Source: a virus. From it: 22,922 bases of DNA. This document shows positions 2 through 18,850 of this stretch, piece by piece. Every line of letters begins with the position of its first letter. Positions within the stretch are counted from its first letter, which is position 1. Where the stretch lies: positions 1-22,922 of the IMG/VR virus record IMGVR_UViG_3300025133_000621. One strand, written 5' to 3'. Below the pieces are notes generated by a model that was not told the origin of the DNA, did not search any database, and worked only from the letters and a program-made list of their open reading frames with translations. Made by a program: the position numbers and the translations under genes.

Positions 2-1789
2 AAAGTAGAAGCCCAACTAGATAATGAAGCTCCCGAAGTAATCGCAGCAGTAGCAGCGTTACCTCAAGAAGCTTTAGTATCCTCTCAAATGGAAACACTA
101 TTAGCAGGTATGGAGTCGGGTACTGTCCCTACGTGGGCAAAACCCGCTTATGATGTTGTTAATCAAAATATGGCACAACGAGGAATAGATGCTTCTACAG
201 TAGGAAGAGATGCTTTATTTAATGCTATTATACAAAGTGCTATTCCTTTGGCTCAAAGCAATGCACAGGCATTACAAACTAGAGCAGCACAAAATCTTTC
301 TAATGAACAACAAGCAAATTTACAACAAGCTCAATTAGATTCTACTAGGCGAATGAACAACTTAGCAAATCGTCAGACAGCAGAGTCACAGTCAGCGCAG
401 TTTGCACAGAATTTAAATGTTCTTCAGAGTCAGTTTAATCAAGAAAGAGATACTTTATCTGCTCAACAACAACAACAAGTTAGACTACAGAATCTTCAGA
501 ACCAACAAAGGACTGCTGAACTTAATGCTCAAAATTTAGCAGCATCTAAATCTCAAAACTTAGGTAATGAGCAACAGATAGAGTTAGCTAATTTAGAAAT
601 AAAGAACCAAACTGAACAGCAGAACATGACTGCTGAAAATCAAGAGCGTCTTGCTGAGATGCAAGTAGCTGCTGATTTCTTATCTAAGAATGCAGGATTC
701 ACTCAGCAAATGCAACTTGCTAATCTTAGTAATGATCAACAAATGAGATTAGCTAATTTAACTGCAATGAACCAAGCCGATGCAGAATCTTTATCTAATG
801 AACAACAGACAGAACTAGCAAATTTAAATGTTACAATGCGAACTAATCTGGCTCAAGGACGTATAGCTGAAAGCATGGGTGTAGCTTTATTAAGTGCTGA
901 TCAACAAAGAGCAGTTGAAAATGCTACAATGAATGCTCGTATGGACTTAACTAAATTTAATGATGCTCAACAAGTAGAACTAGCTAATAGTAAATTTATG
1001 CAGACTGTTTCTCTCTCAGATTTTAATGCTAGACAACAGGCGGTTATGCAAGATGCTACAGCCCTTGCAAGTTTAGATATGGCTACCGCAGATCAAAACA
1101 CTAAGTTAGCTATTACTCAAGCTCAAAACTTTTTACAAAGAGATATGGCTGATTTAAGTAATGAACAACAAGCTTTAATACTTGATACACAAGTAGAGCA
1201 ACAAAGACTATTATCTGATCAGGCAGCTACTAATGCAGCTAAACAATTTAATGCTACATCAACTAATCAAATAAATCAGTTTGTAACAAACTTAGCAGCA
1301 CAAATAGATCAATTCAATAATACACAAGCAAACGCTATGGAACAGTTTAATAAAACAGAAGAGAATAGGGTTGAGGCTATAAATGCCGCTAACGCCATAG
1401 ACGCAGCTAAATTTAATAATCAATTAAAAACTCAGTTAGAAGAATTTAATGAGCAAATGGATTTACAAAGAGATCAATGGAATGCTGCTAATGCTCAAGC
1501 TGTAGAACAATCTAATGTAACATGGCGAAGACAATCTAATACTATAAATACTGCTGCTCAAAATGCAGCCAATCAAGAGAATGCTGCTAAGTCTTTTCAG
1601 ATTTCAGCAGCAGATCAAAACTTTATATGGCAAGCATTAAGAGATGAAGCAGCTTATTTAAGACAAGGCTATGAGAATAATGAGCAACGTAAGACAACTC
1701 TATATGCCACAGCAATTTCTAATGAGATTGATACTGGTGCAATAGGTCTTAAACCTATAGTAGATATTGTAGACGGAATTATAGACTAG
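2..1789 (+). CDS. Hendecad-repeat Q/N-rich coiled-coil virion protein, 5' end outside window
   Basis: The reading frame is open from base 2, and the first in-frame ATG is at 89 without a clear ribosome binding site, so the gene very probably starts upstream. The visible part is extremely rich in Gln, Asn and Ala and almost free of Cys and Pro. From base 296 to 1615 it consists of about 40 blocks of exactly 11 residues. In the first half many blocks begin L-S-N-E-Q-Q, and in the second half they end Q-F-N. This predicts a long, nearly straight alpha-helical coiled coil. The last 50 or so residues leave the pattern and are mixed in composition. It sits at the head of a run of particle genes, and the next gene follows after 9 bases with a good AGGAG site. 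I infer a tail-associated or internal virion protein. A fibre or scaffold is also possible. I do not recognise a named family. Confidence 0.8.
   Translation, partial: KVEAQLDNEAPEVIAAVAALPQEALVSSQMETLLAGMESGTVPTWAKPAYDVVNQNMAQRGIDASTVGRDALFNAIIQSAIPLAQSNAQALQTRAAQNLSNEQQANLQQAQLDSTRRMNNLANRQTAESQSAQFAQNLNVLQSQFNQERDTLSAQQQQQVRLQNLQNQQRTAELNAQNLAASKSQNLGNEQQIELANLEIKNQTEQQNMTAENQERLAEMQVAADFLSKNAGFTQQMQLANLSNDQQMRLANLTAMNQADAESLSNEQQTELANLNVTMRTNLAQGRIAESMGVALLSADQQRAVENATMNARMDLTKFNDAQQVELANSKFMQTVSLSDFNARQQAVMQDATALASLDMATADQNTKLAITQAQNFLQRDMADLSNEQQALILDTQVEQQRLLSDQAATNAAKQFNATSTNQINQFVTNLAAQIDQFNNTQANAMEQFNKTEENRVEAINAANAIDAAKFNNQLKTQLEEFNEQMDLQRDQWNAANAQAVEQSNVTWRRQSNTINTAAQNAANQENAAKSFQISAADQNFIWQALRDEAAYLRQGYENNEQRKTTLYATAISNEIDTGAIGLKPIVDIVDGIID
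296..1615 (+). repeat. Array of about 40 in-frame 33-bp (11-residue) repeat units
   Basis: Eight occurrences of the L-S-N-E-Q-Q-like block start (its Leu or Phe codon) lie at 296, 560, 725, 791, 890, 956, 1022 and 1154. Every spacing between them (264, 165, 66, 99, 66, 66, 132) is a multiple of 33. After 1154 the register continues through aromatic or hydrophobic residues in the Q-F-N signature, spaced 11 residues apart, to about 1615. The DNA copies are diverged, so this is a protein-level repeat rather than a recent DNA tandem duplication. Confidence 0.9.
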
Positions 1790-1798
1790 GAGAAAACA

Positions 1799-3040
1799 AT
1801 GGGATTTTTTAGTAAAATATTCAGGGGTGTTAAAAAAGTTTTTAAAAAGATTGGTAAAGGTATCAAAGGTGTTTTTAAAGGCATTGGAAAATTTATGAAT
1901 AAAATTGGCATAGTAGGCCAGATAGCTCTTATGTTTTTACCTTTAGGCCCATTACTCGGAGGAATGATGCAGGGGTTTGGGGGTATGGCTTCTACAGTTT
2001 TAGGTAAGATGGGTACTATAGGAGCAAATATACTTAAAGGAGCAAAGTTTGTTATAGGTAAAGCTAGTGCTTTTGCGGGTGGAGTAAGAAATACTTTTAG
2101 AACTGTTACTCAAGGTGTTAAAACTTTTGCAAGCGAGTTTACTAAAACGGCTCTAAACAAAATAGGTTTTAATCCTACTAAGTTTGGTTGGAAAGCAGGT
2201 GGTAGTTTTGATCAGTGGGTTACATCGGGTAAAGGACAAAGCTTTGGAGATGCTTGGAGTAAAGTAACTACAAACATTACTGACAATGCTAGTAAGATTC
2301 TTGATCCATTTAAGAAAAATATAGTAGCAGACTCCGGTGCTACTTTAGAAAGTATATCTGATAGTACTTTTAAACCAATAGATGAAATAAAAGAATTAAA
2401 TCCTCAAATACAAAATTGGGATGACATTAGTGGTAAGGCTATAAACTTAGACCCTGATAATGTTTCTCAAGTGTTTGGTGCAGGGCCATTACAATCAACA
2501 GCAGATACAGCGATGGCCGCTCAACAAGCTCAACCTTCTTTATTAGATAAGTTAGAATTAAAAGAAACTCCTACAGGTAGTTTAACTTATGATCCACAAC
2601 TTAAAGATATGGGCTTTACTCCTGATTTAACAACAACTCTCACACCTACAGGAACTAAACCTTCTTATTTAGATAGTCTTACTGATATAAAAACTCAAAC
2701 ATTACAAGATCAAAATTTTAGAATGAAGGGAGTTACAGACACAGGCGGAGGTAGCTTATTAGGTATGCCGAGTACTGGAGATGTATTAGGAACAATGGGC
2801 AGCGAAGTACTTAGACAAGGTGTTGCACAGGTAATGACTCCAGAATCAGAGTATTCTTCTCAAGGGTATATGGTGGACGCAGGATACCCTCAAGTATATG
2901 GCGCTCCTCAACAAGAAGACTTTATACAAGCAGCGCCTTATAGTAATATGGGCTATCGTGATCCAACGGGTTCTTATGGTTATGGAGTAGGTGATACCAA
3001 TATTTATTATAATCATATGACTAGACTAGGTTTAACATAA
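1799..3040 (+). CDS. Basic amphipathic virion-type protein, possible membrane-active ejection protein
   Basis: This protein has 413 residues. The start ATG follows AGGAG with six bases between. The first 35 residues are packed with Lys, Gly, Phe and Ile in a helical pattern (FSKIFRGVKKVFKKIGKG is part of it), followed by a hydrophobic stretch around residues 38-62 rich in Gly, Met and Leu that could enter a membrane. The rest is Gly/Ser/Thr-rich and low in complexity, with a Tyr/Gly/Pro-rich tail over the last 60 residues. Position between the coiled-coil gene and the large proteins suggests a particle component. A lytic-peptide-like N-terminus would suit a protein that helps DNA cross the envelope. 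No named family is recognised; the role is inference. Confidence 0.75.
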   Translation: MGFFSKIFRGVKKVFKKIGKGIKGVFKGIGKFMNKIGIVGQIALMFLPLGPLLGGMMQGFGGMASTVLGKMGTIGANILKGAKFVIGKASAFAGGVRNTFRTVTQGVKTFASEFTKTALNKIGFNPTKFGWKAGGSFDQWVTSGKGQSFGDAWSKVTTNITDNASKILDPFKKNIVADSGATLESISDSTFKPIDEIKELNPQIQNWDDISGKAINLDPDNVSQVFGAGPLQSTADTAMAAQQAQPSLLDKLELKETPTGSLTYDPQLKDMGFTPDLTTTLTPTGTKPSYLDSLTDIKTQTLQDQNFRMKGVTDTGGGSLLGMPSTGDVLGTMGSEVLRQGVAQVMTPESEYSSQGYMVDAGYPQVYGAPQQEDFIQAAPYSNMGYRDPTGSYGYGVGDTNIYYNHMTRLGLT

Positions 3041-3050
3041 GGAGCTAATA

Positions 3051-3635
3051 ATGGCACTAGATACAATAGATAATCCTGTAGCTTCTGCAATTACACTAAA
3101 TAGACCGATACCCGGACAGGGGCTTACTACTGACCCTGAGAATCCTATGCCGTGGGAAAAGCCACCAGAGATTACAGAATTAGAGGAAGGTCTTCAATAT
3201 GTTTTTGGTCGTTTGATAGAACCTAAAATTTATATTTCTATTATGGATGTCATAGATGATGGTACTCCTTTGATGGACGTTGTTCAAGGAATATTGTTTA
3301 AAGGTTTTACAGAAGGTAAATGGAATCCAGACTTAATGATGCTTCTCGCAGAACCTACTGCCTATATGTTAATGGCATTAGCTGAAAGAGCTAATATAGA
3401 TTTCAAAATCTATAGAGGCGAAGAAGAAGATGATAACGAAGAAGAAACTTTATTTAATGTTGAAGTTAGTAAAGAAAAATTAAAAAAGTTAAAAGAGTTT
3501 GATACTTCCAAAACAATTCCAAAGGGTATGATCCCTAAAGAAATAGAAGAACAGATTGAAGAACTTCCTGCTTCTGGTTTGTTAGCTAAACCTGAAGAAG
3601 AAGAACCTGCAGATAGCTTACTAGGAAGGGTGTAG
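3051..3635 (+). CDS. Acidic protein of unknown function in virion module
   Basis: This protein has 194 residues, with AAGGAGC 7 bases before the ATG. The N-terminus is rich in Pro and Asn. The middle (about residues 45-115) looks globular with a hydrophobic stretch. The C-terminal 80 residues are dominated by Glu and Lys and include poly-Glu runs. There are no cysteines and no signal peptide. It is co-directional with the flanking virion-type genes, 10 bases after the previous stop and 2 bases before the next start, so it is probably translated as part of the same late operon. It could be a small structural or assembly protein. I do not recognise its family. Confidence 0.75.
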   Translation: MALDTIDNPVASAITLNRPIPGQGLTTDPENPMPWEKPPEITELEEGLQYVFGRLIEPKIYISIMDVIDDGTPLMDVVQGILFKGFTEGKWNPDLMMLLAEPTAYMLMALAERANIDFKIYRGEEEDDNEEETLFNVEVSKEKLKKLKEFDTSKTIPKGMIPKEIEEQIEELPASGLLAKPEEEEPADSLLGRV

Positions 3636-3637
3636 AC

Positions 3638-5626
3638 ATGAGCATTGATGATTTAGGAAGACAGTTAGTTAAAGAAGGTAGGGACAGGCGTGATAAAGTT
3701 CGCAAGAGACAAGAGCGATATGAGCGTAGGGCTGCTCTTGCTCAAATTGCACTTCCGATAGGTGCTAAGATTATTGAAGAGGGGTTAATCCAAAAGTCTC
3801 AAGATTTTTTTAATTCAGAACAAGTTTTAAATTTAACTAGAGAATTTAATAAAGCTACTACTAAAGGTTCAATGTTTATAAATAACGAACAACAAATACA
3901 AAGTGCAGCAGGTGGTAATGCTGAAGCTTGGTTTGAAGATCAAAATTTTGAAGCAGCTAAAACTCAGCTAATGGACACGCTTACAGAAGAACAAATAGGT
4001 GGGCCTCAACAATTAAATATGAGGGAAATAGATATAAGAGCAAGAGCTATTGCTAGAGACATGGCAGTCAACCAAGCAAAAGAACACAGAGAAGGTCTTG
4101 CGGTTGCTCTTAATTTAGGAACTAAAGAAGAATTTGATTCTGAACTTGCTAGAAAATTAAAACCTACTACACCTACAACTATTGTGGGGGCGGTAGGAAG
4201 ATGGGCTAGTACTAAGCTTGGTGGTCAATCTACCGCAGAAAGACAGGCAGATGCCATTAATGATTTTAAGCGTGGTTATCAGTTTACTTCTACACAGCAA
4301 ATGGATGCGGCTGTAAAAGAGTTTCAAACAACAAATAACTGGCGTTCTGCTTTTATTAAAGCCGCTAATACTGCTGAAGGTTCTGAAGGACAGGGTTATT
4401 GGGCTGACAAAATTAAAGAATTTAGAGGAATGAAACCCTACGAAAGGGCTCTAGAAACTAATTTGAATGTAGTTACTAGACCTGATGGGACAAAAGTTCT
4501 TGAGGGATGGACACAAAGAAGGAACGTAGATGGTTCGATAATACCAGATTCTATAACTCCTATTGACCAGAAAATAGTAGGTATTGATCCTGAAGCGGCT
4601 AGGCTATATGATATGAATTTTAAGGAAGCCTTAAAAAGGATGTTTGATCCTTTGAAAGCTTCAGAAAAATATTTAACTCAAGAGGGTGTCGATGCCTATG
4701 AAGCTGTTTTAAATTCAAAAACAGATGCTGATAATAATATCTATAGTCGTTGGGATTTTAATGGTGCAGAAGAACATCAAGTATTGTTTCAAACTTTCAG
4801 AGACTTTATTAGTGACCCTGCAAATGAAAAATATATAATACCACAATATACACAAGCTCAAATACTAAAACAACGAGAACTTCTTGCTTCTGAATGGTTT
4901 GGAGATATATTAGCTGAAGTAGATGCAACTAAAGCTAGAGAAATACGCTCTACGTTTAATGAAGAATTTGAAGGTTATCAAAAATATTATTCGGAAGAGT
5001 CAAGGGGTAGAGAGAGTACTCCACCTACGTTATCTCCTGAATTTGTTACAGCTTATGGTGATGGAGATGAGACTCTGGCTAGACAAAAACTTAGAGAAGC
5101 TGTAATTGCTTGGAACACTAGAGAGTGGGTGGAGGATGAAATTTTTAATGGTACTGATGAGGAGATAAATAGTGCGATAGGGATTAACTCTTCAGAAGAA
5201 ACAAATGAAGACGAAGATACTGGCGAAAATCAGACTAGTGTTATACCAGAGAACAGGAGGTCTTCATTAGAAGATTTGGTTGTTCAACCGTGGGAAGTAC
5301 AAGTAGCAAACGCTGAACTGGATTGGCCTGATGAGTATAAAAAACTTCAGGAGATGTTAGCAAGGGCAGGTGATATATCAAATAGAAGAGAGCGACAAAG
5401 TCAGGAACTTAGAATACAAAATAAAATAGATAATTTTGTATCAGATAGAGAAGCAGAAATAGCAAGACTATCTAGGGTAGATATAAATCAAAGAGGACGT
5501 AGAATAGTTGGCCCTAGTGCAGAAGATCTAGAACAAATAGCAAAGCTTGAGGAAGAGATAGCACAATTTATAGCTATGCAAGATTCGAGTGGCTCTACTA
5601 TTCTTTCCGCAGGAGGAGATGATTAA
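3638..5626 (+). CDS. Large virion-type protein, probable internal (ejection) protein
   Basis: This protein has 662 residues, with a GGAAGG site before the ATG. The N-terminal 35 residues are strongly charged (Arg, Lys, Glu) and likely helical. The rest is a highly charged, helix-rich protein without cysteines, signal peptide or recognisable catalytic motif. Charged coiled-coil sequence returns in the last 80 residues. Its stop codon overlaps the start of the next gene as TAATG, which couples translation of the two. In T7-like phages the genes for internal core proteins lie together after the tail genes and are long and poorly conserved. Size, composition and order here match that pattern, so I infer an internal virion protein. 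The evidence is contextual only. Confidence 0.75.
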   Translation: MSIDDLGRQLVKEGRDRRDKVRKRQERYERRAALAQIALPIGAKIIEEGLIQKSQDFFNSEQVLNLTREFNKATTKGSMFINNEQQIQSAAGGNAEAWFEDQNFEAAKTQLMDTLTEEQIGGPQQLNMREIDIRARAIARDMAVNQAKEHREGLAVALNLGTKEEFDSELARKLKPTTPTTIVGAVGRWASTKLGGQSTAERQADAINDFKRGYQFTSTQQMDAAVKEFQTTNNWRSAFIKAANTAEGSEGQGYWADKIKEFRGMKPYERALETNLNVVTRPDGTKVLEGWTQRRNVDGSIIPDSITPIDQKIVGIDPEAARLYDMNFKEALKRMFDPLKASEKYLTQEGVDAYEAVLNSKTDADNNIYSRWDFNGAEEHQVLFQTFRDFISDPANEKYIIPQYTQAQILKQRELLASEWFGDILAEVDATKAREIRSTFNEEFEGYQKYYSEESRGRESTPPTLSPEFVTAYGDGDETLARQKLREAVIAWNTREWVEDEIFNGTDEEINSAIGINSSEETNEDEDTGENQTSVIPENRRSSLEDLVVQPWEVQVANAELDWPDEYKKLQEMLARAGDISNRRERQSQELRIQNKIDNFVSDREAEIARLSRVDINQRGRRIVGPSAEDLEQIAKLEEEIAQFIAMQDSSGSTILSAGGDD

Positions 5627-8600
5627 TGCCTTTTCCTCAAATGCCAACTAGGACAGTTACGTTTGAAAATGGAGAAACGTATGATAATGTGCCTAACGAT
5701 ATAAAAACTTTTGAAGATTATCAAGCTTATAAAGAATCAGAAATAAGAAAAAGACATTTTGATGATCCTACTAGATTATCTCCTCAAGATGTGGATAATC
5801 CTTTTCATCGTGATTTAAAAAGATTTTATAAAAGTACTATAGGTCAACCTTTAGATTTTGTAAGAGCAGCAGTTACTAAAGGTGATGCTACTATTGGTGA
5901 AAGGATGGAAGAGATTAGAGAAACCAGAGCTACAGAGCTTTCTGAAATGGAAAGAAAGGGTGAGTTTTCTTATAGAAGTTTATTGTATGCTGACCAAGAG
6001 GAACAAGATATAATTGTAGATGAAGATGGTTATGCTACTCTTCCTGAAACTTTAGCGGGTACTGGTCTACACATAGGTAGTTATTTTGCAGGAGGCTATG
6101 GAGTTGCTAGGGGGCTTTCAAGGCTTGCGCTTAAAGCTCCGAAAGCCTTTAAAAAATTAACAGGAAAGTATGGTAGAACCTCTTCATTTTTAAAAGGAAC
6201 TAGCACAGGTATTTTAACTGACCAGTGGATTACTAATCCTAATGAAGGTAATCTTGTCTCTATCTTTGCAAAAGACACGGGAGTTAGTGATGAAGAATTA
6301 AGCATACTAGGTGAGTATGTTCAAAGTGTAACTCCTCTTGAAGAAGATTCTGCTTTAGAAAAACGATTTAAAAATATTGCGGGTAATCTTCCTTTTGATT
6401 TTATTATTGGTTTAGGAGGAATGACAAAATACGCCTATGCTAAAAGTAAGGGTAAGCTTCCTAGTCAATTAACTACTGATGATAAGGCAGATATGGTTAA
6501 GCGGGGTTTAGACGATACTCGCAATGAAGTTGTTCCCCCATCTACTGTATCTAAATTAACAAGCGGGGCTGAAGTTCAAGATATTGATGAGTTTAATCAA
6601 GTAATAAAACAAGAAGAAGGGTTTTTGGGGTGGAGAAAATTAAAACAAAGGTATTTTACTACGAGAGGTTACAATACTGTTAAAGGTCAAGACGCTTTTG
6701 AAGATAGTATGAATGCTATGCGAAAGACTAACAATCAAGGAGAGCATACATCTTTAAGATTAAAAAATTCTATTGATTCGATTGTTAAAAATACTGGCGA
6801 TGACGAAATGGCTAAACGAGCGATGGCTTTCTTAACTGATTCAAGAACTATAGTAGTAAGAGACAAGAAATCTTTTTCAAAAAATTTCTTAAAGGAAGGA
6901 AAAAGGGCAGGAAAGTCTAAAGCTTTTATGGAGAGGATGGGTGAAAGACAACAAAGGGCTACAAGACTTAAAGAACTTTTAATGTCTGATACTATCTCAC
7001 ACGAAAAGAAAATTTCTTTAATAACTAAAAAATATAATTTAAGTAAAGAAGTAGCTGAGAATGCTTTAGAAGCTAGATTACTAATAGATAATCTTTCTAA
7101 ACAAATTATTCAATCTCCTTCAGTTAAGAAAGAATTAAAAAGAAAACTTACAGCTAACTTAGGTTTTTACATGAATAGAGCATACAAGCTTTTTGAAGAT
7201 GGCAACTATACTCCCGAAGCAGTTGTTAGAGAAAAAGCAAAAAAGCATCTTATTAGAAAATATAAAAAAGAAAAGCAGTATGCTAAGTTTACTCAACAAG
7301 AATTAGAAAATACAGCCGACTCTTATTTATCATCTTTCTTAGCTAGAACAAAGGGAGAGTATAAAACTACTGTAGGAAGACCTCACAAAAGTTTAAAAGA
7401 CCCTATCCTTGAAGCTCGAAAAGATATACAAGAACCTTTGAGAGAAGTTATAGGAGAAATAACAGACCCTTCAGACGCTTTAATATTAACTGTAAATAAA
7501 ATGTCTAAGCTTTATCAACGTGATAAATTTCTAACAGACATGAATAAAATAGGTACAGATCAGGGATTTATTATAAAGGCTAAAGACCCTAGACCATCAA
7601 CCGGAGAGTGGGTAGAAATAAAAGGTGCAAGCAAAGCTTTAGATGGTAAGTTTACTACCCCCTTAATGAAAAAGGTAATAGACGATCAAGAACAATATTT
7701 GTTTAATGAGGGATACTCAAATAATACTATTGTAAAAAACTTCTTATCTATGAAAGGATTTGCAAACAAAGCAGCTACAGTATTTAATCATATCACAGTA
7801 ATAAGAAATTTTTTAGGCGGTGTCCAAGCTAACGTAGCTAATGGCCTTACTCCTTTAAAACTATTTGGACAGGGTAGAGGTACAGAAACTTTTAAAGTTT
7901 TGTTTAATGAAATACGGAAGGGAGGTAATAAAAAATTAGAAAAACTACATGAAGAATTTTTAGAATTAGGTATTATAAATACTAACGTAAAACTTGGAGA
8001 TTTAAGAGCTTTAATAAATGAAGGTGCTAATGCTAGTAGTGTAGATAATTTAGCAGGAAGGATAAAGAATATTCCTTTGGTTGGTAAACCATTGGCGGGT
8101 ACGGGTGATTTTGCAGAAAAACTTTATATGGGGATAGATGATTTTTTTAAAATAAATGCTTTTGAACATGAGCTAAGTGTTTTAAAAAGAGCGCATGAAG
8201 GAAGTGGTATGTCTCTTCCAGATTTAAAAAGAATAGCGGCTGAAAAAGTAAAGAACACTTACTTTAATTATGATAGAGTTTCTAAAGGAGTTAAGGCTAT
8301 GCGTCAATCTCCTTTAGGAAGTTTTGCTTCTTTCCCTGCTGAAGTTATCAGAACAAGCGGCTATATTGTTGGTACAGGATTGCAAGAACTTACCTCTGGT
8401 AATGCAGTCTTAGCAGCTAGAGGAGCAACTAGACTTGCAGGATTTATAGGTAGTGGAACTGCATGGGGGGCTGTATCAGAAATTTCAAAAGCCAAACTTG
8501 GTTGGAGTGAAGAACAACAAGATGCCGCACAAGTGCTTACTGAAACTCCGTGGTCAAAAGATTCTCCTAGAATTTTTCGTACTACTGAAGACGGAAGAAT

Positions 8601-9489
8601 TTTTTCAGCAGACACAAAATATATAGATGCTTATAACACAATTAAACAACCTTTAATGACAGTAATTGCTGACACAGAAAGAGGACGTATCACAGGAGAA
8701 GAAATTCCTGAAGCAATACTTGGGGCAAGTCTTTCTGCTTTTAAAGAACTAGCAAGTCCTTTTGTTTCAGAAGCTATTATGACACGTTCTATAACAGATG
8801 TGTATTATGCTTACAGAAATCCTAATGGAGTAACTCCCGATGGGAAAGACTTGTTTGCCCCTGAACAAAATAATTTAGAAAGAGCAGCTAGTGTAACTGG
8901 TTATCTTTTTAATAATTTAATTCCGGGCGGTGGTGGTGCTATCCAAAGAATAGTAGAGGCAAAGACAGGAGCAATTAATCCTTATACTGGTTTTCCTAAA
9001 AGAGATTTGGATATGGAAATATCGGCTAATTTTACTGGTGTAAGATATAATGAATTTGATCCTAAAGCACAAGTAGAGTTTGCTCTGACTAATTACAATA
9101 GAGAACAAAGAAGATTAAATCCCATCAGAGGAAATTATACTACTACTGTAGAAGACACAGTAAATGATTATGCCTCAAGACAAAGAAAGAGATATGTTCT
9201 TCAACAAGAACTTTTTAGAAAAGTTAAAGCAGCTCAGTATTTTTTAAATAATAGTGATCTGCGAAATTTATTGGAAGAAAGAAATTTTTCTAAGTCCTTT
9301 GCTAGAAATATTTTGGATGGTAATTTTACTGCTGAAACAATTACAGATTCAACAGTAGAAAGTATTAGGAAGAGATCAGTTAGGGAAGAAGGTGTTACTA
9401 CTAGTACTATAAGAAGACTATTGCAACAAAGATATGCTAGTATGAACTACACTAATTTACATATGCCTGAAGAGGATGGGGAAGAGTGA
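5626..9489 (+). CDS. Giant virion protein, probable internal/ejection protein (gp16-like position)
   Basis: This protein has 1287 residues, with AGGAGGAG before an ATG that overlaps the previous stop. The N-terminus contains the short element VTFENGETYDNVP, a pattern often seen at the start of large phage ejected proteins. Hydrophobic, Gly-rich stretches near residues 142-165 and 915-955 could associate with a membrane. The rest is mainly charged helical sequence, with Lys/Arg-rich helices in residues 370-600. I see no lysozyme or transglycosylase motif of the kind found in T7 gp16. The next gene starts with GTG in a GTGA overlap with this stop. The role in forming the DNA-ejection channel is inferred from length, position and neighbours. 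Confidence 0.78.
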   Translation: MPFPQMPTRTVTFENGETYDNVPNDIKTFEDYQAYKESEIRKRHFDDPTRLSPQDVDNPFHRDLKRFYKSTIGQPLDFVRAAVTKGDATIGERMEEIRETRATELSEMERKGEFSYRSLLYADQEEQDIIVDEDGYATLPETLAGTGLHIGSYFAGGYGVARGLSRLALKAPKAFKKLTGKYGRTSSFLKGTSTGILTDQWITNPNEGNLVSIFAKDTGVSDEELSILGEYVQSVTPLEEDSALEKRFKNIAGNLPFDFIIGLGGMTKYAYAKSKGKLPSQLTTDDKADMVKRGLDDTRNEVVPPSTVSKLTSGAEVQDIDEFNQVIKQEEGFLGWRKLKQRYFTTRGYNTVKGQDAFEDSMNAMRKTNNQGEHTSLRLKNSIDSIVKNTGDDEMAKRAMAFLTDSRTIVVRDKKSFSKNFLKEGKRAGKSKAFMERMGERQQRATRLKELLMSDTISHEKKISLITKKYNLSKEVAENALEARLLIDNLSKQIIQSPSVKKELKRKLTANLGFYMNRAYKLFEDGNYTPEAVVREKAKKHLIRKYKKEKQYAKFTQQELENTADSYLSSFLARTKGEYKTTVGRPHKSLKDPILEARKDIQEPLREVIGEITDPSDALILTVNKMSKLYQRDKFLTDMNKIGTDQGFIIKAKDPRPSTGEWVEIKGASKALDGKFTTPLMKKVIDDQEQYLFNEGYSNNTIVKNFLSMKGFANKAATVFNHITVIRNFLGGVQANVANGLTPLKLFGQGRGTETFKVLFNEIRKGGNKKLEKLHEEFLELGIINTNVKLGDLRALINEGANASSVDNLAGRIKNIPLVGKPLAGTGDFAEKLYMGIDDFFKINAFEHELSVLKRAHEGSGMSLPDLKRIAAEKVKNTYFNYDRVSKGVKAMRQSPLGSFASFPAEVIRTSGYIVGTGLQELTSGNAVLAARGATRLAGFIGSGTAWGAVSEISKAKLGWSEEQQDAAQVLTETPWSKDSPRIFRTTEDGRIFSADTKYIDAYNTIKQPLMTVIADTERGRITGEEIPEAILGASLSAFKELASPFVSEAIMTRSITDVYYAYRNPNGVTPDGKDLFAPEQNNLERAASVTGYLFNNLIPGGGGAIQRIVEAKTGAINPYTGFPKRDLDMEISANFTGVRYNEFDPKAQVEFALTNYNREQRRLNPIRGNYTTTVEDTVNDYASRQRKRYVLQQELFRKVKAAQYFLNNSDLRNLLEERNFSKSFARNILDGNFTAETITDSTVESIRKRSVREEGVTTSTIRRLLQQRYASMNYTNLHMPEEDGEE

Positions 9490-12400
9490 GCAAACTTTTA
9501 GATAAACTAAGAAAAAAAATTAAAATTGAAGGTGGGAGCATGGGTTCTTCTAATTGGCCTTCAGTATTAGTTCCTCAAGCACCTGTTGAGCCTGATGAAA
9601 GGAAAGATAAAATGACAGGGCTTCCCTATGCCATGCAAGCAGGAGGGGCTTTTGAAGATACAGAGGATCGTATAGGTCTTGCAAGTGGATGGGCTGAAGC
9701 TTTAAGACTTGTGGGTAGAGCAACACGGGGAAGAGGCGCTCCTTCTTTAGCATCTGATATAAGACCAACTACAAAATTTAAAATAGATGATGACATAAAA
9801 GATATATTAACAGAATTGCGATTCAGAAATAAAGATAATTTTATAGACCCTTATGATCCTAGTTATTCTACTACCCATCTTAAAATAAATAATGAGGCAG
9901 AGTTTGAAAAATATTTATTAGACAATGAGAACATAGATTTAAAACATTTTAATACTCTTCCTTTAGAAGAAAGGGAAACACTTATAGATATTTTTAATGT
10001 TACAAAGAGTGATATAAAAAGCGCTGATGATTTGCTTGGTTATAAAAGAGATAACGTAGAGTATCATACTGTTCCTGATGAAAGATATACTATAGCTAAA
10101 GGTGAAAAGAAATCTCAACTTTTAGCAAAGCTAAATACAGAACTTGATTCTGTTCCTGTAGAGGATATAGAAATTGCAAAAAGATATGCAGATAATATAC
10201 CTAAAATAGACACAACAACCTCTTCTCCAACGATGACAAAGGAAGAATTCTTAGAAGGCTCTATTGAAAAAGAACCACAATATAATGCTAGTTTTTTTGG
10301 TAACACAAAACACGTTGCTCGATTATCTACTAAAATACCAAGAGAGCTTGGTCTTCATGTGGGTAAAAAAGGTCATGCCGAAACTATGTATATAAGAGGT
10401 AGTGTTCCTAGAGGAGAAAATATAATAGAAGAAGCAGGTATAGATTATTATATGTCTTTTCCTGATGTAGTTGATGAAATTGATGCAAAAGTTTTAACGA
10501 ATAATAAGGGAGTTCCTGATGAGCTAATGGATACTCTTGTACAAGAAATGTCTGAGGTAAACCCAACAATTAAAAAGATAGGAGGGACTGAGCCTATCTT
10601 ACAAAAAGGTTACATTAATGTAAAAACTCCTTTTGTATTGAATACTGATATGATCAACTGGAATCCTTCTAAAATTTTTGGGGGATTTGATCCTGAAGGG
10701 GCGCTTAAATTAGATGAACAAGCAGATATTTTAATAAGAGCTTTGGAATCTCAAACAAAAATACCTGAAGCAAGGGCTAAAATAATAGTAGATAAGTTAG
10801 CAGAAGACATTAATTCTTTAGTTGCGAAGAAAGACCTTATAGAAAAAGAAGGGTTTGTAGGAGATGTATACGAACACAGTATGAACGTACTTACTAGAGA
10901 AGCTATGCAAGACTTGGGATTCGACAGCATTAAGTATAAAAACATAGGAGAACTCGCAAGGGTTTCAGAGAAACAAGCGGGTGGTCACTCTTATATATTG
11001 TTTAGAGATGATCAGTTTGCTACTGACTTTGCTAAAGATGCTCCTTTTATGAGACAACCAAGAACATTAAGAAAAACTATTCCTGAAGTACAAAAAGCGT
11101 ATGACGATTTAAAAGCAGGTACTATTACATCTGATGAATATGACAAGATAGTAAATAATACTGTGTACCCATACGAGAAAGTACCTCCTCCAGAGACAGA
11201 TGAAGCAATGTTTAAAGCTTTGGCTGAACCTAAACGCAAAAATCTTAACACTCCATTTGAGGAAGGGCAAGAAGTAGGGCTGAGATTGGACATTCCTGCA
11301 TATTTAAGCAAAGAAAACTCTGCATGGGTTCCTACAATACACGTTAATGGAAAACCGAAGGGACATCAATCTACTGCTGCAATAAGAGATGTTGATTTTA
11401 CGAAGAGTGTTTCAAAAAAATACTCAACTGCTGAGTTGGCTCAAGGAGTTATGGAAGGTAAAGAAAAATCTCCTTTTGCTCAGATGATGGGTAAATATAT
11501 TGATAGAGATGCTAAACAAAACTATGATGCTGCGGTTGAAGCCCTAGATAGTGACGAGTGGATACAGGTAGGCTTTGACCCTAGAAGACACTCTTTCTTT
11601 TATGATAGAGTAACAGGACAGCCAGTAGCTACAGCAGAAGAAGTAATACAAGTAGGGCCACTAGTGTTGGCTAAGAAAGCTACATATGCAGACAGGTCTT
11701 TATATCCTTATGCAACCGGAGGCAAAGTACTACGAAGTCTTGGAAGAAAGCAATATAGTTTAGGAGGTAAGATAAAAAACGCACTAGCAAAATTAATAGG
11801 GCGTGGGCCTGAACAACAAATAAATACTTTTATAGAATCAGTTAATTTAAATAATGAATTAGTAGATAAAGGTTTATTGGGAGCAAACCAAAGACTTAAA
11901 TATGCTGAATGGGAAATGACAAAAGATAAAGAAGGTAGTCCTGTACCTGTTAAAGATGAAAGAGGATACAAAGTACCTGCAAGATTTTTAACTGAAGAAG
12001 AAGTTAGAAACTTTGATAGAGCTAATATTGCAATGGGTATATCTGGCAATGAAGAGGCTTTTAATGCAATTCAACACGCTTTATTGGGGTATGATAATGC
12101 AGGTTTAACCGCCCCACTTATTCAAGGCAGAGAAATTCTATCAGCAAGAAAACAAATAGAGCTAGGGAATGATCCAAGAACAGAGCATGTCGATAGATGG
12201 AACAATAGCTTTGGTATAAATGCTAGAAGAAGAGGTATTCCTAGAGAAGAATTTAAATATACTAATATAGTAAACAGTTTGGCAGATGTTGATGGTCAAG
12301 GAACTGACTCAAAGGGACGAAATAATATACCTTTACAAAGAGGAGTTGATCTTATAAAAAATATAAAAGATGTTCCTTCAGATTTTATATCTAGAAATTT

Positions 12401-12500
12401 AGAAGGCTCTACTGCAGGGACAGGAATTTCTATGCCCCCAAGAGATCAAATAAATACAGGCGGTAAAATACTAGGAAGTCTCCATAGGAACTGCACATGA
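9486..12500 (+). CDS. Polyvalent virion protein with ADP-ribosyltransferase-like domain and C-terminal His/Asn-rich domain
   Basis: This protein has 1004 residues. The start is GTG within GTGA, and an ATG at 9540 with a nearby GGTGGGAG is an alternative start. About residues 280-515 look like an ADP-ribosyltransferase fold of the type found in phage polyvalent proteins. The signs are a first strand with GLHVG (His291), a middle element resembling YINVKTPFVLNTD, then LGFDSIKYKN (residues 477-486), and HSYILF (501-506) followed by Gln510, where H-Y-[EDQ]-type enzymes place the acidic or Gln residue. A second C-terminal domain carries NAIQHA (His864) and HVDRWNNSFG (His901, Asp903, Asn906, Asn907), a pattern reminiscent of DUF6973-like proteins. 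A short Lys/Gly-rich hydrophobic linker lies near residues 740-775. It probably travels in the particle and enters the cell with the DNA; enzymatic activity is unproven. Confidence 0.75.
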   Translation: MSKLLDKLRKKIKIEGGSMGSSNWPSVLVPQAPVEPDERKDKMTGLPYAMQAGGAFEDTEDRIGLASGWAEALRLVGRATRGRGAPSLASDIRPTTKFKIDDDIKDILTELRFRNKDNFIDPYDPSYSTTHLKINNEAEFEKYLLDNENIDLKHFNTLPLEERETLIDIFNVTKSDIKSADDLLGYKRDNVEYHTVPDERYTIAKGEKKSQLLAKLNTELDSVPVEDIEIAKRYADNIPKIDTTTSSPTMTKEEFLEGSIEKEPQYNASFFGNTKHVARLSTKIPRELGLHVGKKGHAETMYIRGSVPRGENIIEEAGIDYYMSFPDVVDEIDAKVLTNNKGVPDELMDTLVQEMSEVNPTIKKIGGTEPILQKGYINVKTPFVLNTDMINWNPSKIFGGFDPEGALKLDEQADILIRALESQTKIPEARAKIIVDKLAEDINSLVAKKDLIEKEGFVGDVYEHSMNVLTREAMQDLGFDSIKYKNIGELARVSEKQAGGHSYILFRDDQFATDFAKDAPFMRQPRTLRKTIPEVQKAYDDLKAGTITSDEYDKIVNNTVYPYEKVPPPETDEAMFKALAEPKRKNLNTPFEEGQEVGLRLDIPAYLSKENSAWVPTIHVNGKPKGHQSTAAIRDVDFTKSVSKKYSTAELAQGVMEGKEKSPFAQMMGKYIDRDAKQNYDAAVEALDSDEWIQVGFDPRRHSFFYDRVTGQPVATAEEVIQVGPLVLAKKATYADRSLYPYATGGKVLRSLGRKQYSLGGKIKNALAKLIGRGPEQQINTFIESVNLNNELVDKGLLGANQRLKYAEWEMTKDKEGSPVPVKDERGYKVPARFLTEEEVRNFDRANIAMGISGNEEAFNAIQHALLGYDNAGLTAPLIQGREILSARKQIELGNDPRTEHVDRWNNSFGINARRRGIPREEFKYTNIVNSLADVDGQGTDSKGRNNIPLQRGVDLIKNIKDVPSDFISRNLEGSTAGTGISMPPRDQINTGGKILGSLHRNCT

Positions 12501-12866: not shown

Positions 12867-14153
12867 ATGAAATATTTACTACTAATAGGAACATTATTAT
12901 TTAGTTCACTGGCTTATGGAAGCCCCACTTATGTAGATGATGTGGCTAAAATAATAAATAATAATTGTGTTGTGTGTCACCGTGACGGTGGTATTGGCCC
13001 AATGCAGTTTGAAACCTATGACCAAGTACGCCCGTGGAGTCCACTAATACAACTCAAGGTAGCTAGTCGTGAGATGCCGCCCTATGCTTATGATCAAGAT
13101 ATAGGGATACAGCAATTACATGGTGATTGGAGGCTCTCTGAGGCTGATATAGACACGATAGTAGAGTGGGTAGCCACGGGATCAGAGTATGGGGATACGG
13201 ACGTTGTAGTGCAGCCTCCGAGCCTCTCAGACCCAAGCCAGTGGAATTTCTACGGAGACTTTGGAGAGCCTACATTGGTTATACCATCTATACCTATAGA
13301 TATTCCAGCCACAGGAAATGATTTATGGCACAAGCATAATGTAGCCAGTGGATTAACTGAAGACAGATGTATCAAAGCTATTCAAGTCAAGCCTAGAGGT
13401 GATGCTAAGAGTGTAGTACATCACGCCAATAGTTCTGTCACTGTAGATGGTGAGAGATATGGGATGCTAACAGAGTATGCAATGGGCAAGTGGGGAGAGA
13501 TAGTACCAGAGGGTGTATGCCGAACTATTCCGGCTGACTCTGAGATAGCTTGGGATATTCATATGTTCCCCGGAGGTCTTGGAGCAATAGCCCCCGGCAC
13601 AGTTATAGAAGATAACGTAGTAGAGATAGGGCTGTGGCTATATTCTCCAGAGGAATCTAAAGAACTTGCATATGCACAAGACTTAAAGCTTTACAGAATC
13701 AGCCAACAAGAAGATATTGCTATCCCGCCTCACGGCTATAGCATGACGCAGGGCTTTCATTCTTTTGATCATCCTGTTCGTATAGACTCTTGGCAACCTC
13801 ACGGTCATCTTAGGATGAACGCAGCAAGCTTTGAGATATTCTATCCAGACACAGGAATGACAGAGCAGATTAGTCAAGTATCTAACTGGAGTGCTACATG
13901 GCATCACAGTCATATATATGAACCAGACTTTGCACCGCTTCTTCCAACAGGAGCAGTACTAATTCTTAAACAATGGTACGACAACACTAAAGACAACCCA
14001 AATAACCCTGACCCCGATATGTGGGTTGTAGGCGGGAGTAGAACAGGGGATGAAATGACCCATGCTTGGATTGCTGTTACACATCTTGATGAAGAAAAGT
14101 ATCAAGAACTTTTAACCGAAAGAAAGAACAGGAGGATGATTGCGGCACAATGA
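12867..14153 (+). CDS. Secreted cytochrome c / copper type II (PHM-like) monooxygenase fusion
   Basis: This protein has 428 residues; the ATG has GGAG about 9 bases upstream. Residues 1-18 form a classic signal peptide (hydrophobic core, likely cut after AYG), so it should act in the periplasm. A c-type haem site, CVVCH, is at residues 34-38, with Met71 in REMPP as possible axial ligand and an ending (SEADIDTIVEWVATGS) typical of small cytochrome domains. The rest resembles copper type II ascorbate-dependent monooxygenases. His185-His186 and His232 (WDIHMF) would bind the electron-transfer copper. His312-x-His314 (PHGHLRM) and Met397 (DEMTHAW) would bind the catalytic copper. The family element YDNTKDNPNNPDP is present. 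Known relatives hydroxylate C-H bonds; the bacterial fusion's substrate is unknown. It lies between lysis-type genes and overlaps a lipoprotein gene by ATGA. All expected ligands are present, so the protein looks intact. Its presence in a phage is unusual. Confidence 0.88.
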   Translation: MKYLLLIGTLLFSSLAYGSPTYVDDVAKIINNNCVVCHRDGGIGPMQFETYDQVRPWSPLIQLKVASREMPPYAYDQDIGIQQLHGDWRLSEADIDTIVEWVATGSEYGDTDVVVQPPSLSDPSQWNFYGDFGEPTLVIPSIPIDIPATGNDLWHKHNVASGLTEDRCIKAIQVKPRGDAKSVVHHANSSVTVDGERYGMLTEYAMGKWGEIVPEGVCRTIPADSEIAWDIHMFPGGLGAIAPGTVIEDNVVEIGLWLYSPEESKELAYAQDLKLYRISQQEDIAIPPHGYSMTQGFHSFDHPVRIDSWQPHGHLRMNAASFEIFYPDTGMTEQISQVSNWSATWHHSHIYEPDFAPLLPTGAVLILKQWYDNTKDNPNNPDPDMWVVGGSRTGDEMTHAWIAVTHLDEEKYQELLTERKNRRMIAAQ

Positions 14154-15556: not shown

Positions 15557-16525
15557 CTACACGCTTGCAAAGTTTATGGTTTCTACATTTCCTTTCAACC
15601 CTGCCTTCATATAGGTAGTGGCTCTCCCTTCAAAAAAGTTTTGATGTTCTACTCCTAAGACATCATCTAGCCATAACAGAGGATTATCGCTTACTTTAAA
15701 GTTAGGCTTCAGTCCTAACTGCAACAACCTTCTGTCTGCTATATACCTTATATACTCTTTCATTTCATATTTTGTTAGTCCCTGCATGTCTCCCATTTCA
15801 AATACTAAATCTAAAAACTTATCTTCCAATTTTACCATCTCCCTACAGACCTGATAGATTTCTTTTTTAAAATTATCTGTCCACATATCTACATTCTCTT
15901 TTATAAATTCTCTAAAGAGCTTTGTCATTGCTTCAACATGAAGTGATTCATCCCTTATGCTATAAGTAACTATCTGACCCATGCCTTTCATTTTACCAAA
16001 GCGAGGAAAGTTTAAGAGTATAGCAAAGCTACTAAAGAGTTGTAGCCCCTCAGTAAAGGCTGAATAGATTGCCAAGTTCTTAGCTATAGATTCTTTATTA
16101 TTAAGTTTAAGAGGTGACTTCCTTATATAATCATGCTTATCAGCCATCGCCTCATACTCAGCAAATGCTTTATACTCAGTCTCAGGCATCCCCACAGTAT
16201 CTAAAAGAAGACTATAGGCGTGTTGATGAATTGATTCCATATTAGCAAAAGAACACATCATCATTCTTGCTTCTGGATTTTTAAACACACGCATATATTT
16301 ATCTATATAACCAGACGCTACATCTACATCAGACTGTGTAAACAATCTGAATATCTGACTCAATAAATTCTTTTCGGGCTTGCTCATGTCTTGCCAATCT
16401 TTAACATCATTATGTAAGGGTACATCTTCTGGCAACCATATCATTTGATTCTGTTGCACGTAGTAATCGAACATCCACGGATAATCAAAAGGCTTATAAT
16501 AGTCTCTAGTTGATAACAAACTCAT
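15557..16525 (-). CDS. nrdB: Class Ia ribonucleotide reductase, small (radical) subunit
   Basis: This protein has 322 residues. It houses the di-iron centre and tyrosyl radical that start ribonucleotide reduction in the large subunit, giving dNTPs for phage replication. All six metal ligands are visible with the spacing of E. coli R2: Asp66, Glu97, His100, Glu159, Glu193 and His196. The radical tyrosine is Tyr104 in ESIHQHAY. The C-terminal region contains the usual FFEGRATTY and ends in a short tail (INFASV) that should bind NrdA. Length is slightly shorter than in E. coli, which is normal for phage forms. It is separated from nrdA by two small genes in the same operon. Confidence 0.96.
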   Translation of the reverse strand: MSLLSTRDYYKPFDYPWMFDYYVQQNQMIWLPEDVPLHNDVKDWQDMSKPEKNLLSQIFRLFTQSDVDVASGYIDKYMRVFKNPEARMMMCSFANMESIHQHAYSLLLDTVGMPETEYKAFAEYEAMADKHDYIRKSPLKLNNKESIAKNLAIYSAFTEGLQLFSSFAILLNFPRFGKMKGMGQIVTYSIRDESLHVEAMTKLFREFIKENVDMWTDNFKKEIYQVCREMVKLEDKFLDLVFEMGDMQGLTKYEMKEYIRYIADRRLLQLGLKPNFKVSDNPLLWLDDVLGVEHQNFFEGRATTYMKAGLKGNVETINFASV

Positions 16526-16790: not shown

Positions 16791-17028
16791 ACTCCCAATA
16801 ATCTATAATCATACCTTTTGGTACAACCATTATAGCATTTACATATTCTTTATCTTTATCGTTATGATAAATATCAGTCGAAAGAATAATTTCGTTCTCA
16901 TTGTCTGCTACTAACCAGCCGACTGTTGAGCGTAGTATAGGTTTTAATTTCTTTGCATCAACAACCAGAACATCTTGTGTATCTATCCAAGCATCTTCCC
17001 ATTTTATCTCTACAACTTTAGCCTTCAC
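16762..17028 (-). CDS. Conserved-looking small phage protein of unknown function
   Basis: This protein has 88 residues. Its GTG start lies 11 bases inside the end of nrdA, and the gene overlaps the next one by 29 bases. It is mainly beta-strand-like, with VEIKWEDAW near the start, LKPILRSTVGWLVADNE in the middle and an ending MIIDYWEYEF. It resembles short hypothetical proteins common in marine phages (from memory, not searched). There is no cysteine, signal peptide or membrane segment. Tight overlap on both sides supports translational coupling. I cannot assign a function. Confidence 0.72.
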   Translation of the reverse strand: MKAKVVEIKWEDAWIDTQDVLVVDAKKLKPILRSTVGWLVADNENEIILSTDIYHNDKDKEYVNAIMVVPKGMIIDYWEYEFDDTNSS

Positions 17029-18850
17029 AACTTAGACACCCTTCTTCATCTAATTTTATCCGGGGTATTTTTATGTTCACGTTTTCTGTCCCTCTCGCAG
17101 AATCAGAACGTAAGTAGTACAAAGATTTTAGTTTGTTTGCCCCCGCCCAATGAACATCATTAACGTACTGCAAAAAATCATTGTGGGTTTCTTGAGAAGC
17201 ATTGTGATCTGGTGGTTTGAAAAATAAATTAACGCTCTGACTTTGACAAATGTATTTCTGTCTCTGTTCTGCGTGTTCTATTATCCATATTTGATTTATT
17301 TCGGGAGCAGTTTTAAATACTTCTTTCTGCTCATCAGATAATATATCTAGATGTTGAACTGATCCTTCATGGGCTACAATGTCCTTCCAGATTTCTTCTA
17401 TTTTCTTTTTAGTAGGCACAAGCTCCAATAAAAGATCATCAAGATATTTATTCTTGACTTTAAAACTTCCTGTTAAAGTTTTGTGTGTATAAACATTAGC
17501 CCTATTAGGCTCTATAGAGGGGCTTGTACCGCCACATATAATAGAACTAGAGGCGTTAGGGGCAACTGCAAGTAAATGTGCATTGCGCCTTCCGCTTCCC
17601 TTCATGTCTGGACACTCTCCACGATCTTCGGCTAGTTGTCTTGTAGCCGCAGATGCTCTATCCTTTATAAAAGAGAATGCTTTGTTATTAAAAGAGGAAG
17701 CCCACATACTTTCAAATGCAATGTTATTTTTTTGTAGGTAACTATGGAACCCCATTGCTCCTAAACCTATAGACCTTTCTCTCATGGCTGAGAAAACAGC
17801 TTTAGAATAACCAGCTTGATCTTTGACTCCATCAATAAAATTCTGGAGTACATTGTCTAGCATAGTTATGAGATCAGATATGAAACTGTCTTCTTTAGAC
17901 CACTCATCAAAGTGTTCTAGGTTTACACTAGACAGACAACAAACCGCCGTTCTCTCTTCGTTTGTAGGTAAGATTATCTCAGAACATAAATTACTCTGTC
18001 TTATTTCTAGTCCTATCCTTTTCTGTTCTTCTGGTAAAGCCTCATTACATATATCTAAATTAACAAGGTAAGGTTCACCAGTTTCCATTCTTGTTTGAAT
18101 AAGTTGGAACCACAGGTCACGGGCTAAGACTGTCTTGACTGCCGTGTTAGTCTTGGGATCGATTAATCTCCACTCTTTATCTAGCTTTACTGCGTTTAAA
18201 AACTCATTCGATATGTTAATAGCATTATGAATGTTCAAACATTTTCTATTTAAATCCCCGCCTGTAGTCTTACGCATGTTTATAAACTCTTCTACTTCGG
18301 GATGGGAGATGTCTGTGTAAGCCGCATAGCTCCCTCTCCTTGTTACGCCCTGATTAAAGGCTAACATCTGAGAGTCTACAACGTGCATGAAGGGGATAGA
18401 ACCAGTAGACTTAGAACCGTTAGCAGTGTCCACACCGTTGCTCCGAACAGCGCCCCAACATCCACCGATGCCTCCACCTCCACTCGCGAGCCATATGTTC
18501 TCATCATAGTGGCTAGATAAACCAGTGCGGGAATCAGGAACAAAATTAAGAAAGCAACTGATAGGTAAGCCACGGCTAGTTCCCCCGTTACTAAGGATAG
18601 GAGTGCTAAACATGAACCAGAACCTACTAGCATACGAATAAAGTCGCTGTGCAAGATCATAATCAGTATGTCCTTTGTAAGTAGAGCCAAAAATACTGGC
18701 ACGAGCAAAAGCTTCTTGAGCATGAGTTTCATTCTCCCAAAAATATCTATCTTTTAATGTAGACAAAGCAAAAGAATCTAAATATTCTTCTGTCTCATAG
18801 TCTATCTTGATTCCTAAATAATCCTGTCTACCTATTTTGTTTAATGTCAT
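17018..18850 (-). CDS. nrdA: Class Ia ribonucleotide reductase, large (catalytic) subunit
   Basis: This protein has 610 residues. It reduces ribonucleoside diphosphates to deoxy forms with NrdB. Catalytic Asn287, Cys289 and Glu291 are in NLCSE. The redox pair is Cys99 (PISCF) and Cys304 (TAVCC). The loop ASGGGGIGGCWG and a C-terminal Cys-x2-Cys (GCLSCEG) for reactivation by thioredoxin are present. At 610 residues it is much shorter than E. coli NrdA (about 760), and the N-terminus enters the core domain directly with no ATP-cone, so dATP feedback through that domain is absent. This is common for phage enzymes. No thioredoxin or glutaredoxin gene is seen in the window, so a host reductant may be used. 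Identity is certain. Confidence 0.97.
   Translation of the reverse strand: MTLNKIGRQDYLGIKIDYETEEYLDSFALSTLKDRYFWENETHAQEAFARASIFGSTYKGHTDYDLAQRLYSYASRFWFMFSTPILSNGGTSRGLPISCFLNFVPDSRTGLSSHYDENIWLASGGGGIGGCWGAVRSNGVDTANGSKSTGSIPFMHVVDSQMLAFNQGVTRRGSYAAYTDISHPEVEEFINMRKTTGGDLNRKCLNIHNAINISNEFLNAVKLDKEWRLIDPKTNTAVKTVLARDLWFQLIQTRMETGEPYLVNLDICNEALPEEQKRIGLEIRQSNLCSEIILPTNEERTAVCCLSSVNLEHFDEWSKEDSFISDLITMLDNVLQNFIDGVKDQAGYSKAVFSAMRERSIGLGAMGFHSYLQKNNIAFESMWASSFNNKAFSFIKDRASAATRQLAEDRGECPDMKGSGRRNAHLLAVAPNASSSIICGGTSPSIEPNRANVYTHKTLTGSFKVKNKYLDDLLLELVPTKKKIEEIWKDIVAHEGSVQHLDILSDEQKEVFKTAPEINQIWIIEHAEQRQKYICQSQSVNLFFKPPDHNASQETHNDFLQYVNDVHWAGANKLKSLYYLRSDSARGTENVNIKIPRIKLDEEGCLSCEG

Follow-up and report, generated by a model that had tools for sequence, protein, structure and literature searches.

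An eleven-residue helical array protein of HMO-2011-type marine podoviruses and its possible role as an amide-lined genome conduit

Introduction

A helix built of eleven-residue repeats (hendecads) runs nearly straight, and a canonical hendecad coiled coil carries one core stripe. Among the described systems closest to the locus studied here is the DNA pilot protein H of bacteriophage phiX174, whose residues 151-271 build a decameric alpha-helical tube lined with amides (PDB 4JPP, from the sections available of PMC7354561). According to the same sections, 18 of the 23 inward-facing H residues are Asn, Gln or Arg, and the exceptions gather near the C-terminus. Because of this clustering, we infer that the inward residues of the H hendecads are the Gln at positions 1 and 8.

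Among podoviruses, the ejection gene clusters have been reviewed in a source, accessible in part, which also gives the protein sizes of the T7 block (PMC8954989). The available portions of two papers on the HMO-2011 group (PMC9038755, PMC6918029) name no function for the gene described below, and a literature search over partly accessible texts found no work on its protein family.

Results

A conserved and uncharacterised family of array proteins

The window, that is, the whole stretch of DNA analyzed here, is a record of 22,922 bases from a marine bacterial virus. It showed no close nucleotide match to annotated phage DNA, and its proteins place it among the HMO-2011-type marine podoviruses. 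A tblastn search with the first ORF matched 26 records, including Pelagibacter phages HTVC104P and HTVC115P, Roseobacter phages CRP-1 and CRP-2 and HMO-2011, with more distant matches in Vibrio phage CHOED, Aeromonas phage MQM1 and Pseudoalteromonas phage Slicky01. This ORF is open at the window edge (Table 1). The alignment with a relative of 86% identity starts at residue 455 of the 1049 residues of that relative, leaving 454 extra residues ahead of the window's first one; the full-length protein probably comprises 950 to 1,400 residues, of which the window covers the C-terminal 595 only.

Table 1. Features of the array protein and of the genes that follow it in the window
Feature	Coordinates	Strand	Basis
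Hendecad-array protein, C-terminal 595 residues	2..1789	+	ORF open at 5' window edge
Conserved N-side domain (P.WA ... RG[LM]..S ... PIAQ), directly N-terminal to the array	2..295	+	Alignments, HMM
Array, 40 hendecads, residues 99-538	296..1615	+	Periodicity and phase tests
N-side arm, about 29 hendecads, mostly two-seamed, unit number variable among relatives	296..1243	+	
Conserved QFNATS motif, possible hinge, register kept	1244..1264	+	AlphaFold breaks, unit counts on both sides
C-side arm, Phe at position 10, one-sided hydrophobic face	1265..1615	+	
Conserved C-side domain (QSN..WRR ... WQ..RD), overlapping the last array units	1484..1786	+	Alignment, HMM
Cationic amphipathic protein, 413 aa, probable partner	1799..3040	+	Weak tape-measure PHROG matches
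194-aa protein, same gene block	3051..3635	+	Position, conserved size pattern
662-aa protein, putative gp15-type ejection protein by size and order	3638..5626	+	T7 order
1287-aa protein, putative gp16-type ejection protein by size and order	5626..9489	+	Relative is a virion protein

The HMMs of the N-side and C-side domains both matched in 168 of 168 proteins, while the N-terminal part of the protein was strongly variable in length among relatives. The window protein matched no PHROG or Pfam family at E 0.001, its HMO-2011 relative matched nothing in Pfam at 0.01, and the PHROG matches of the relatives were weak (best E 0.0047) and pointed to unknown-function families or to a virion protein. 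No relative of known structure was found at E 1 with the family alignment profile or at E 10 with the window array. Judged by its sequence, the array protein is a member of a family, so far uncharacterised, that HMO-2011-type podoviruses share with their relatives.

The HMO-2011 protein (L003, 15053-17170) carries about 70 additional C-terminal residues that are missing from CRP-1 and the others aligned. Four relatives (L176-L179) lie on MAG-binned contigs (Maricaulis, Campylobacteraceae, Sphingobacteriales) and are probably co-binned phages; these four matches, all in MAGs, were not taken as evidence for a prophage or a host.

The eleven-residue register is unbroken

Periodicity was determined by comparing the spectrum of residues 99-538 with those of 200 composition shuffles. 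The hydrophobic residues (ILMFVWY) gave peaks of 3.63 at period 2.20 and of 3.51 at 2.756 (shuffle maximum 2.36), Gln gave 3.13 at 3.666 (shuffle maximum 1.64) and Asn 2.84 at 2.749 (shuffle maximum 1.34). The Asn peak at 3.672 (1.24) and all Ala peaks stayed within the shuffle maxima. The Fourier peak at 11/3 anticipated in the preliminary description was consequently present for Gln and missing for the hydrophobic residues, whose power at 3.667 residues per turn was 0.07 over the 440 residues. Their period of 2.2 appears instead of 3.667 because the second harmonic dominates (2.2 = 11/5, an alias of 11/6). Beta structure, considered for the 2.2-residue peak, was dropped given this aliasing from an 11/3 helix, the all-helix models described below and the lack of proline.

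Phase was then scored in 29 non-redundant sequences including the window, each left out of its own reference. The expected phase was obtained in 898 of 898 33-residue windows, 34 of 34 for the array under study, and in 905 of 956 single 11-mers, which bears out the proposal of 40 exact hendecads running without slip over bases 296-1615. No proline occurred in 21,725 array residues from 90 non-redundant sequences. Tandem Repeats Finder reported no DNA-level tandem repeat in the window, so the hendecad units must be old and diverged. The periodicity of 11 residues is thus confirmed, and its strictness is unusual: the array has the unbroken register of a canonical hendecad coiled coil, and the single hydrophobic stripe at 3.667 residues per turn that goes with it was not found.

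Two opposite hydrophobic seams divide an amide face from a charged face

A helical wheel drawn at 11/3 residues per turn for 28 non-redundant sequences separated two hydrophobic seams, nearly 180° apart. Seam A comprises positions 1 (Ala/Leu), 5 (Gln/Asn) and 9 (Leu/Met), and seam B positions 10 (Ala/Phe), 3 (Asn/Ala) and 7 (Ala/Met/Val). The two other faces are an amide stripe at positions 2 and 6 (Gln, Ser, Asn, Thr), poor in charge (D+E 7-8%, K+R 4-7%), and a charged stripe at positions 4 and 8 (44-48% charged), with Asn at 11. In these 28 sequences, the hydrophobicity harmonics were 0.95 for the second and 0.02 for the first. The orientation of the faces was equal in four length classes (charged 292-328°, amide/hydroxyl 93-145°, second harmonic 25-37°), and the net charge of the array is -19. 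At a threshold of 95% or more, 93 array columns are conserved, and in 47 of them the residue is Gln or Asn. Position 5 is the best conserved of the eleven, and position 4, in the middle of the charged face, varies most. Among the position-5 columns conserved at this level, 13 of 21 are Gln and lie in the middle of a hydrophobic seam, resembling an amide ladder between helices.

This pattern changes along the array. In the 38-unit class, the hydrophobic first harmonic was 0.06 in units 1-13, which are fully two-sided, 0.65 in units 14-28, displaced toward seam A, and 0.95 in units 29-40, displaced toward seam B, so that the hydrophobic face changes side near the QFNA(T/S)S motif. In the window array, Leu/Met occupy positions 1 and 9 and Phe position 10. 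The succession of Leu/Met and then Phe described earlier for the core is correct in its order, but Phe at position 10 is on the opposite side of the helix from Leu/Met and the two do not fill one core.

Because the hydrophobic residues form two opposite seams, with almost no power at 11/3 over most of the length, the array is not a plain hendecad coiled coil, and the simple bundle with one core suggested at the outset finds no support in units 1-28. Two opposite seams dividing an amide face from a charged face would be the expected appearance of an alpha-helical barrel.

Repeats of 11 residues also occur in apolipoprotein- and LEA-like proteins, where they present a single amphipathic face at 11/3. 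A Gln/Asn-rich, largely disordered or membrane-surface helix of this kind, coating DNA or lipid with no defined oligomer, would be consistent with the low confidence of the structure predictions. It is, however, very improbable in view of the first harmonic of 0.02 in the array, of the strict unit phase and of the many invariant interface amides.

Unit number varies in whole hendecads on one side of a conserved motif

Using HMM anchors, the distance between the N-side and C-side domains took 13 different lengths, and for 167 of 168 proteins it fell into one residue class modulo 11. Compared with the window, the shortest array lacks 28 units and the longest has 10 more; counting the window's 38 units between fixed anchors, the relatives contain 10 to 48 hendecads, and the suggestion that repeat number might vary among relatives proved right. 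Some of these proteins come from the same phage more than once, for example L087 and L096 or L063-L065, and because the 168 are thus not independent, the number of lengths, 13, is a better measure than the protein count. With pattern anchors, 13 of 88 proteins gave no anchor match, and these are covered by the HMM-anchor count of 168; a looser C-anchor pattern placed 12 of 134 spacings off-phase, at least one of them (L087, in phase with the other pattern anchors) from matching a later W. The sole out-of-phase relative (L108) has a shift of 7, equal to -4, with its slip N-terminal of the QFN motif; a step of -4 is one that a continuous helix tolerates.

The QFN motif is present in 129 of the 168 proteins. 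Most of the variation in unit number lies N-terminal of it, where relatives differ from the window by -26 to +10 units. The C-side arm is unchanged in 100 of these 129 proteins and two units shorter in 22. Unit counts on both sides indicate that the hendecad register is maintained across the QFNA(T/S)S segment.

Structure predictions favor helix and break at the conserved motif

AlphaFold monomer models were obtained for the window protein (43-row alignment) and for a 14-unit relative, L122 (37 rows). Both are all helix with zero strands, which, together with the proline-free array, agrees with the helical nature first assumed. The model of the window protein (pLDDT 57.8, pTM 0.25) contains helices 66-201 and 421-573, running past both array ends, and a broken middle with several further breaks at 201-365. 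The model of L122 (pLDDT 58.2 overall, 72-84 over residues 281-370; pTM 0.24) contains helices 187-270, 278-388 and 393-460. Both models break, with low confidence, at the conserved QFNA(T/S)S segment, near residue 415 in the window. The single continuous helix of 66 nm that had been envisaged is therefore not supported by these low-confidence models, both interrupted at a point across which the register is kept. The predictions favor helix, and support neither its continuity nor any oligomer.

This break is relevant to the main rival of a conduit, namely a core bundle with no DNA channel. The array protein would then belong to an internal core or ejection scaffold, as solid bundles or as antiparallel hairpins folded at QFNA(T/S)S. 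The interruption of both models at one conserved motif and the switch of the hydrophobic face at that motif point in this direction, as does the two-helix hairpin formed in the opened tail by Peru-2 P2_38, a homologue of T7 gp14 according to the accessible part of PMC13320782. Yet a bundle has no need for a charge-poor amide stripe over the whole array, in four length classes, and the register is maintained across the break. We consider such a bundle rather unlikely, and equally so the role that it would imply, in which the protein stores, straightens or guides other ejection proteins.

A fold search of the L122 model in the PDB returned matches at E 0.95 or worse only, two phage tail entries among them, and these carry no weight in the present reading. 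In BFVD, five matches reached E 0.001 or better; by identity they appear to be family members, and they bear no functional name, one being labelled DUF4214.

The array gene precedes a possible block of ejection-type genes

Of the 155 loci whose sequence extends far enough, 103 have a cationic amphipathic ORF within the next three ORFs after the array gene, then usually followed, in the loci sampled, by proteins of roughly 170-240, 400-1,000 and 800-1,600 aa. The 662-aa protein of the window had no family match in PHROGs or Pfam. The 1287-aa protein matched gp123 of Cellulophaga phage phi18:3 by tblastn, which is annotated as a virion structural protein from MS/MS.

The order and sizes of the gp15- and gp16-like genes fit an ejection block, but one or more extra genes lie between them and the array gene. 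In HMO-2011, the array gene comes after several consecutive genes with tail fibre annotations, and this position, like the variable unit number and the strongly length-variable N-terminal part of the relatives, would suit an external tail fibre, whisker or head fibre in which the array serves as a long helical spacer. Helical fibres usually require a single hydrophobic core, however, whereas the array has two opposite seams. Moreover, the conserved parts of the protein are the array-adjacent part and the C-side domain, and its gene heads a T7-like size-ordered block, the last member of which is related to a virion protein. A fibre is therefore improbable. Of the roles listed in the preliminary description, the tail fibre thus loses ground by face pattern and gene order, and the ejection element is supported.

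Other features of the region were noted. The 413-aa protein has a strongly cationic amphipathic N-terminus and is a candidate membrane-active ejection partner. The best annotated relative of the 1287-aa protein, from Pseudoalteromonas phage vB_Pun_Y3, bears the annotation label ADP-ribosyltransferase. A 1004-aa protein (9486-12500, + strand) contains three GG[KR][VI] motifs, and of the 156 hendecad proteins whose 5' end is complete, 87 have a similar GG[RKM][VIMT] in their first 80 residues; this type of motif is possibly a shared packaging or targeting signal. A GLL[ASNQG][RKP] linear motif in downstream genes was too rare to be meaningful. The product of 12867-14153 (+ strand) begins like a signal peptide, contains a CVVCH haem motif and falls just short of a cytochrome c match (PF00034, 21.0 bits, cut-off 21.3); it would be a secreted redox protein, which is unusual in a phage. 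Finally, 15557-16525 and 17018-18850, both on the - strand, encode the two ribonucleotide reductase subunits NrdB and NrdA, respectively, whereas a cobalamin-dependent ribonucleotide reductase is annotated in HMO-2011 and CRP-1.

The hendecads of phiX174 H match the family profile in one register

A position-only family profile was scanned over phage proteins. PhiX174 H scored 16.7 at residues 146-178, which hold most of its published hendecads, while 60 shuffles did not exceed 8.4. H ranked first of 732 non-family ORFs from the loci examined, the next scoring 7.3, and MukB, SbcC, TolA, MukF and CpoB scored at most 1.0. Among synthetic controls (400 each), generic hendecads reached up to 5.8 and no generic hendecad or heptad attained the score of H; two-seamed hendecads with generic polar residues had a maximum of 16.0, close to that of H, so part of the H match is the two-seamed pattern itself.

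When the H hendecads were placed against the family register, one shift scored +10.6 and the other ten -7.3 or lower (column-permutation fraction 0.009). In the best register, H positions 1 and 8, both Gln, fall on the family amide positions 6 and 2. Both the register and profile scans hence found the H-type arrangement, a hendecad helix with its amides in the presumed lumen register. Profile comparison detected no homology to H (hhalign probability 0.15%), and the likeness is thus a resemblance of design and not of membership.

The same scan gave scores of 5.0 or lower for ten T7 gp13-16, P22 gp7/20/16 and Sf6 gp11-13 proteins and three structural controls, and found no hendecads in nine virion proteins of Cellulophaga phage phi18:3 (best 4.3). 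Profile homology to P22 gp7/Sf6 gp11, phi18:3 gp120 or T7 gp14 was not found.

Discussion

We propose that the array protein belongs to the ejection module and forms an amide-lined helical genome conduit, a reading that falls a little short of probable. As the gene sits ahead of putative ejection-type genes, a genome conduit is its most likely role. The array would be a long alpha helix carrying four stripes along its length, in which each hydrophobic seam (1/5/9 and 10/3/7) packs on a neighbouring helix, one per side, the Gln/Ser/Asn/Thr stripe (2, 6) facing inward and the charged stripe (4, 8, with Asn 11) outward. Many parallel copies could thereby assemble as a closed alpha-helical barrel whose lumen is lined with amides. 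Carried in the virion, the proteins would leave the head at infection and build a conduit through which the genome passes, working like the phiX174 H tube and up to several times longer, with a length that depends on how many hendecads lie on the N-terminal side of QFNA(T/S)S.

Several observations run against such a conduit. First, at 0.15 nm per residue, straight arrays of 10 to 48 hendecads would measure 17 to 79 nm, whereas little variation is expected in the width of the envelope. Secondly, the seams are nearly 180° apart, compared with 144° from simple decamer geometry. Thirdly, units 29-40 are one-seamed, with a first harmonic of 0.95, which fits a bundle there. The net charge of -19 in the array, the low confidence and the breaks of the AlphaFold models, the Lys of H at position 7, the high score of synthetic two-seamed hendecads and the negative profile comparisons with H and the other phage proteins also count against it.

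With more reserve, tailed dsDNA phages of an abundant marine group may have independently evolved a phiX174-like amide-lined conduit built in whole-hendecad steps as 10-48-unit tubes, which would possibly be the longest hendecad barrels known. If so, the crossing of the envelope by the DNA of short-tailed marine phages would become testable in one conserved, unnamed protein, two unrelated phage types would have converged on an amide-lined helical tube, and the family would offer a natural length series in one-hendecad steps for the study of conduit-length control.

Comparison with known systems

HMO-2011 gp25, HTVC115P gp47, CRP-1 gp35, CHOED gp013 and MQM1 gp018 belong, by tblastn and alignment, to the same family and occupy the same gene position. 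All are annotated as hypothetical, with 15-28 hendecads between the same anchors compared with 38 in the window. For MQM1, one of these short-array relatives, a head of 70.6 nm and a tail of 9.2 nm, short on its own, are given in the available text of PMC10410586.

With T7 gp14/gp15/gp16 and P22 gp7/gp20/gp16, the locus shares its podovirus setting and a block after the tail genes that ends in very large proteins. The T7 block (196, 747 and 1,318 aa) has a size order similar to that of the window (194, 662 and 1,287 aa), which differs by an additional gene ahead of the trio.

Designed alpha-helical barrels and canonical hendecad coiled coils share the lengthwise packing of helices, but are much shorter than the array. 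PhiX174 H shares the hendecad helix, the Gln on the amide stripe, the Leu/Ile-Ala-x-Met seam and the Glu positions. Its amide-lined tube serves genome delivery, as proposed here for the array, and a delivery defect accompanied by normal assembly is reported for H. H has only three hendecads followed by heptads, compared with 10-48 hendecads in the array family, and carries Lys at position 7 where the family has Ala/Met/Val. Finally, H belongs to an ssDNA microvirus and the array family to dsDNA podoviruses.
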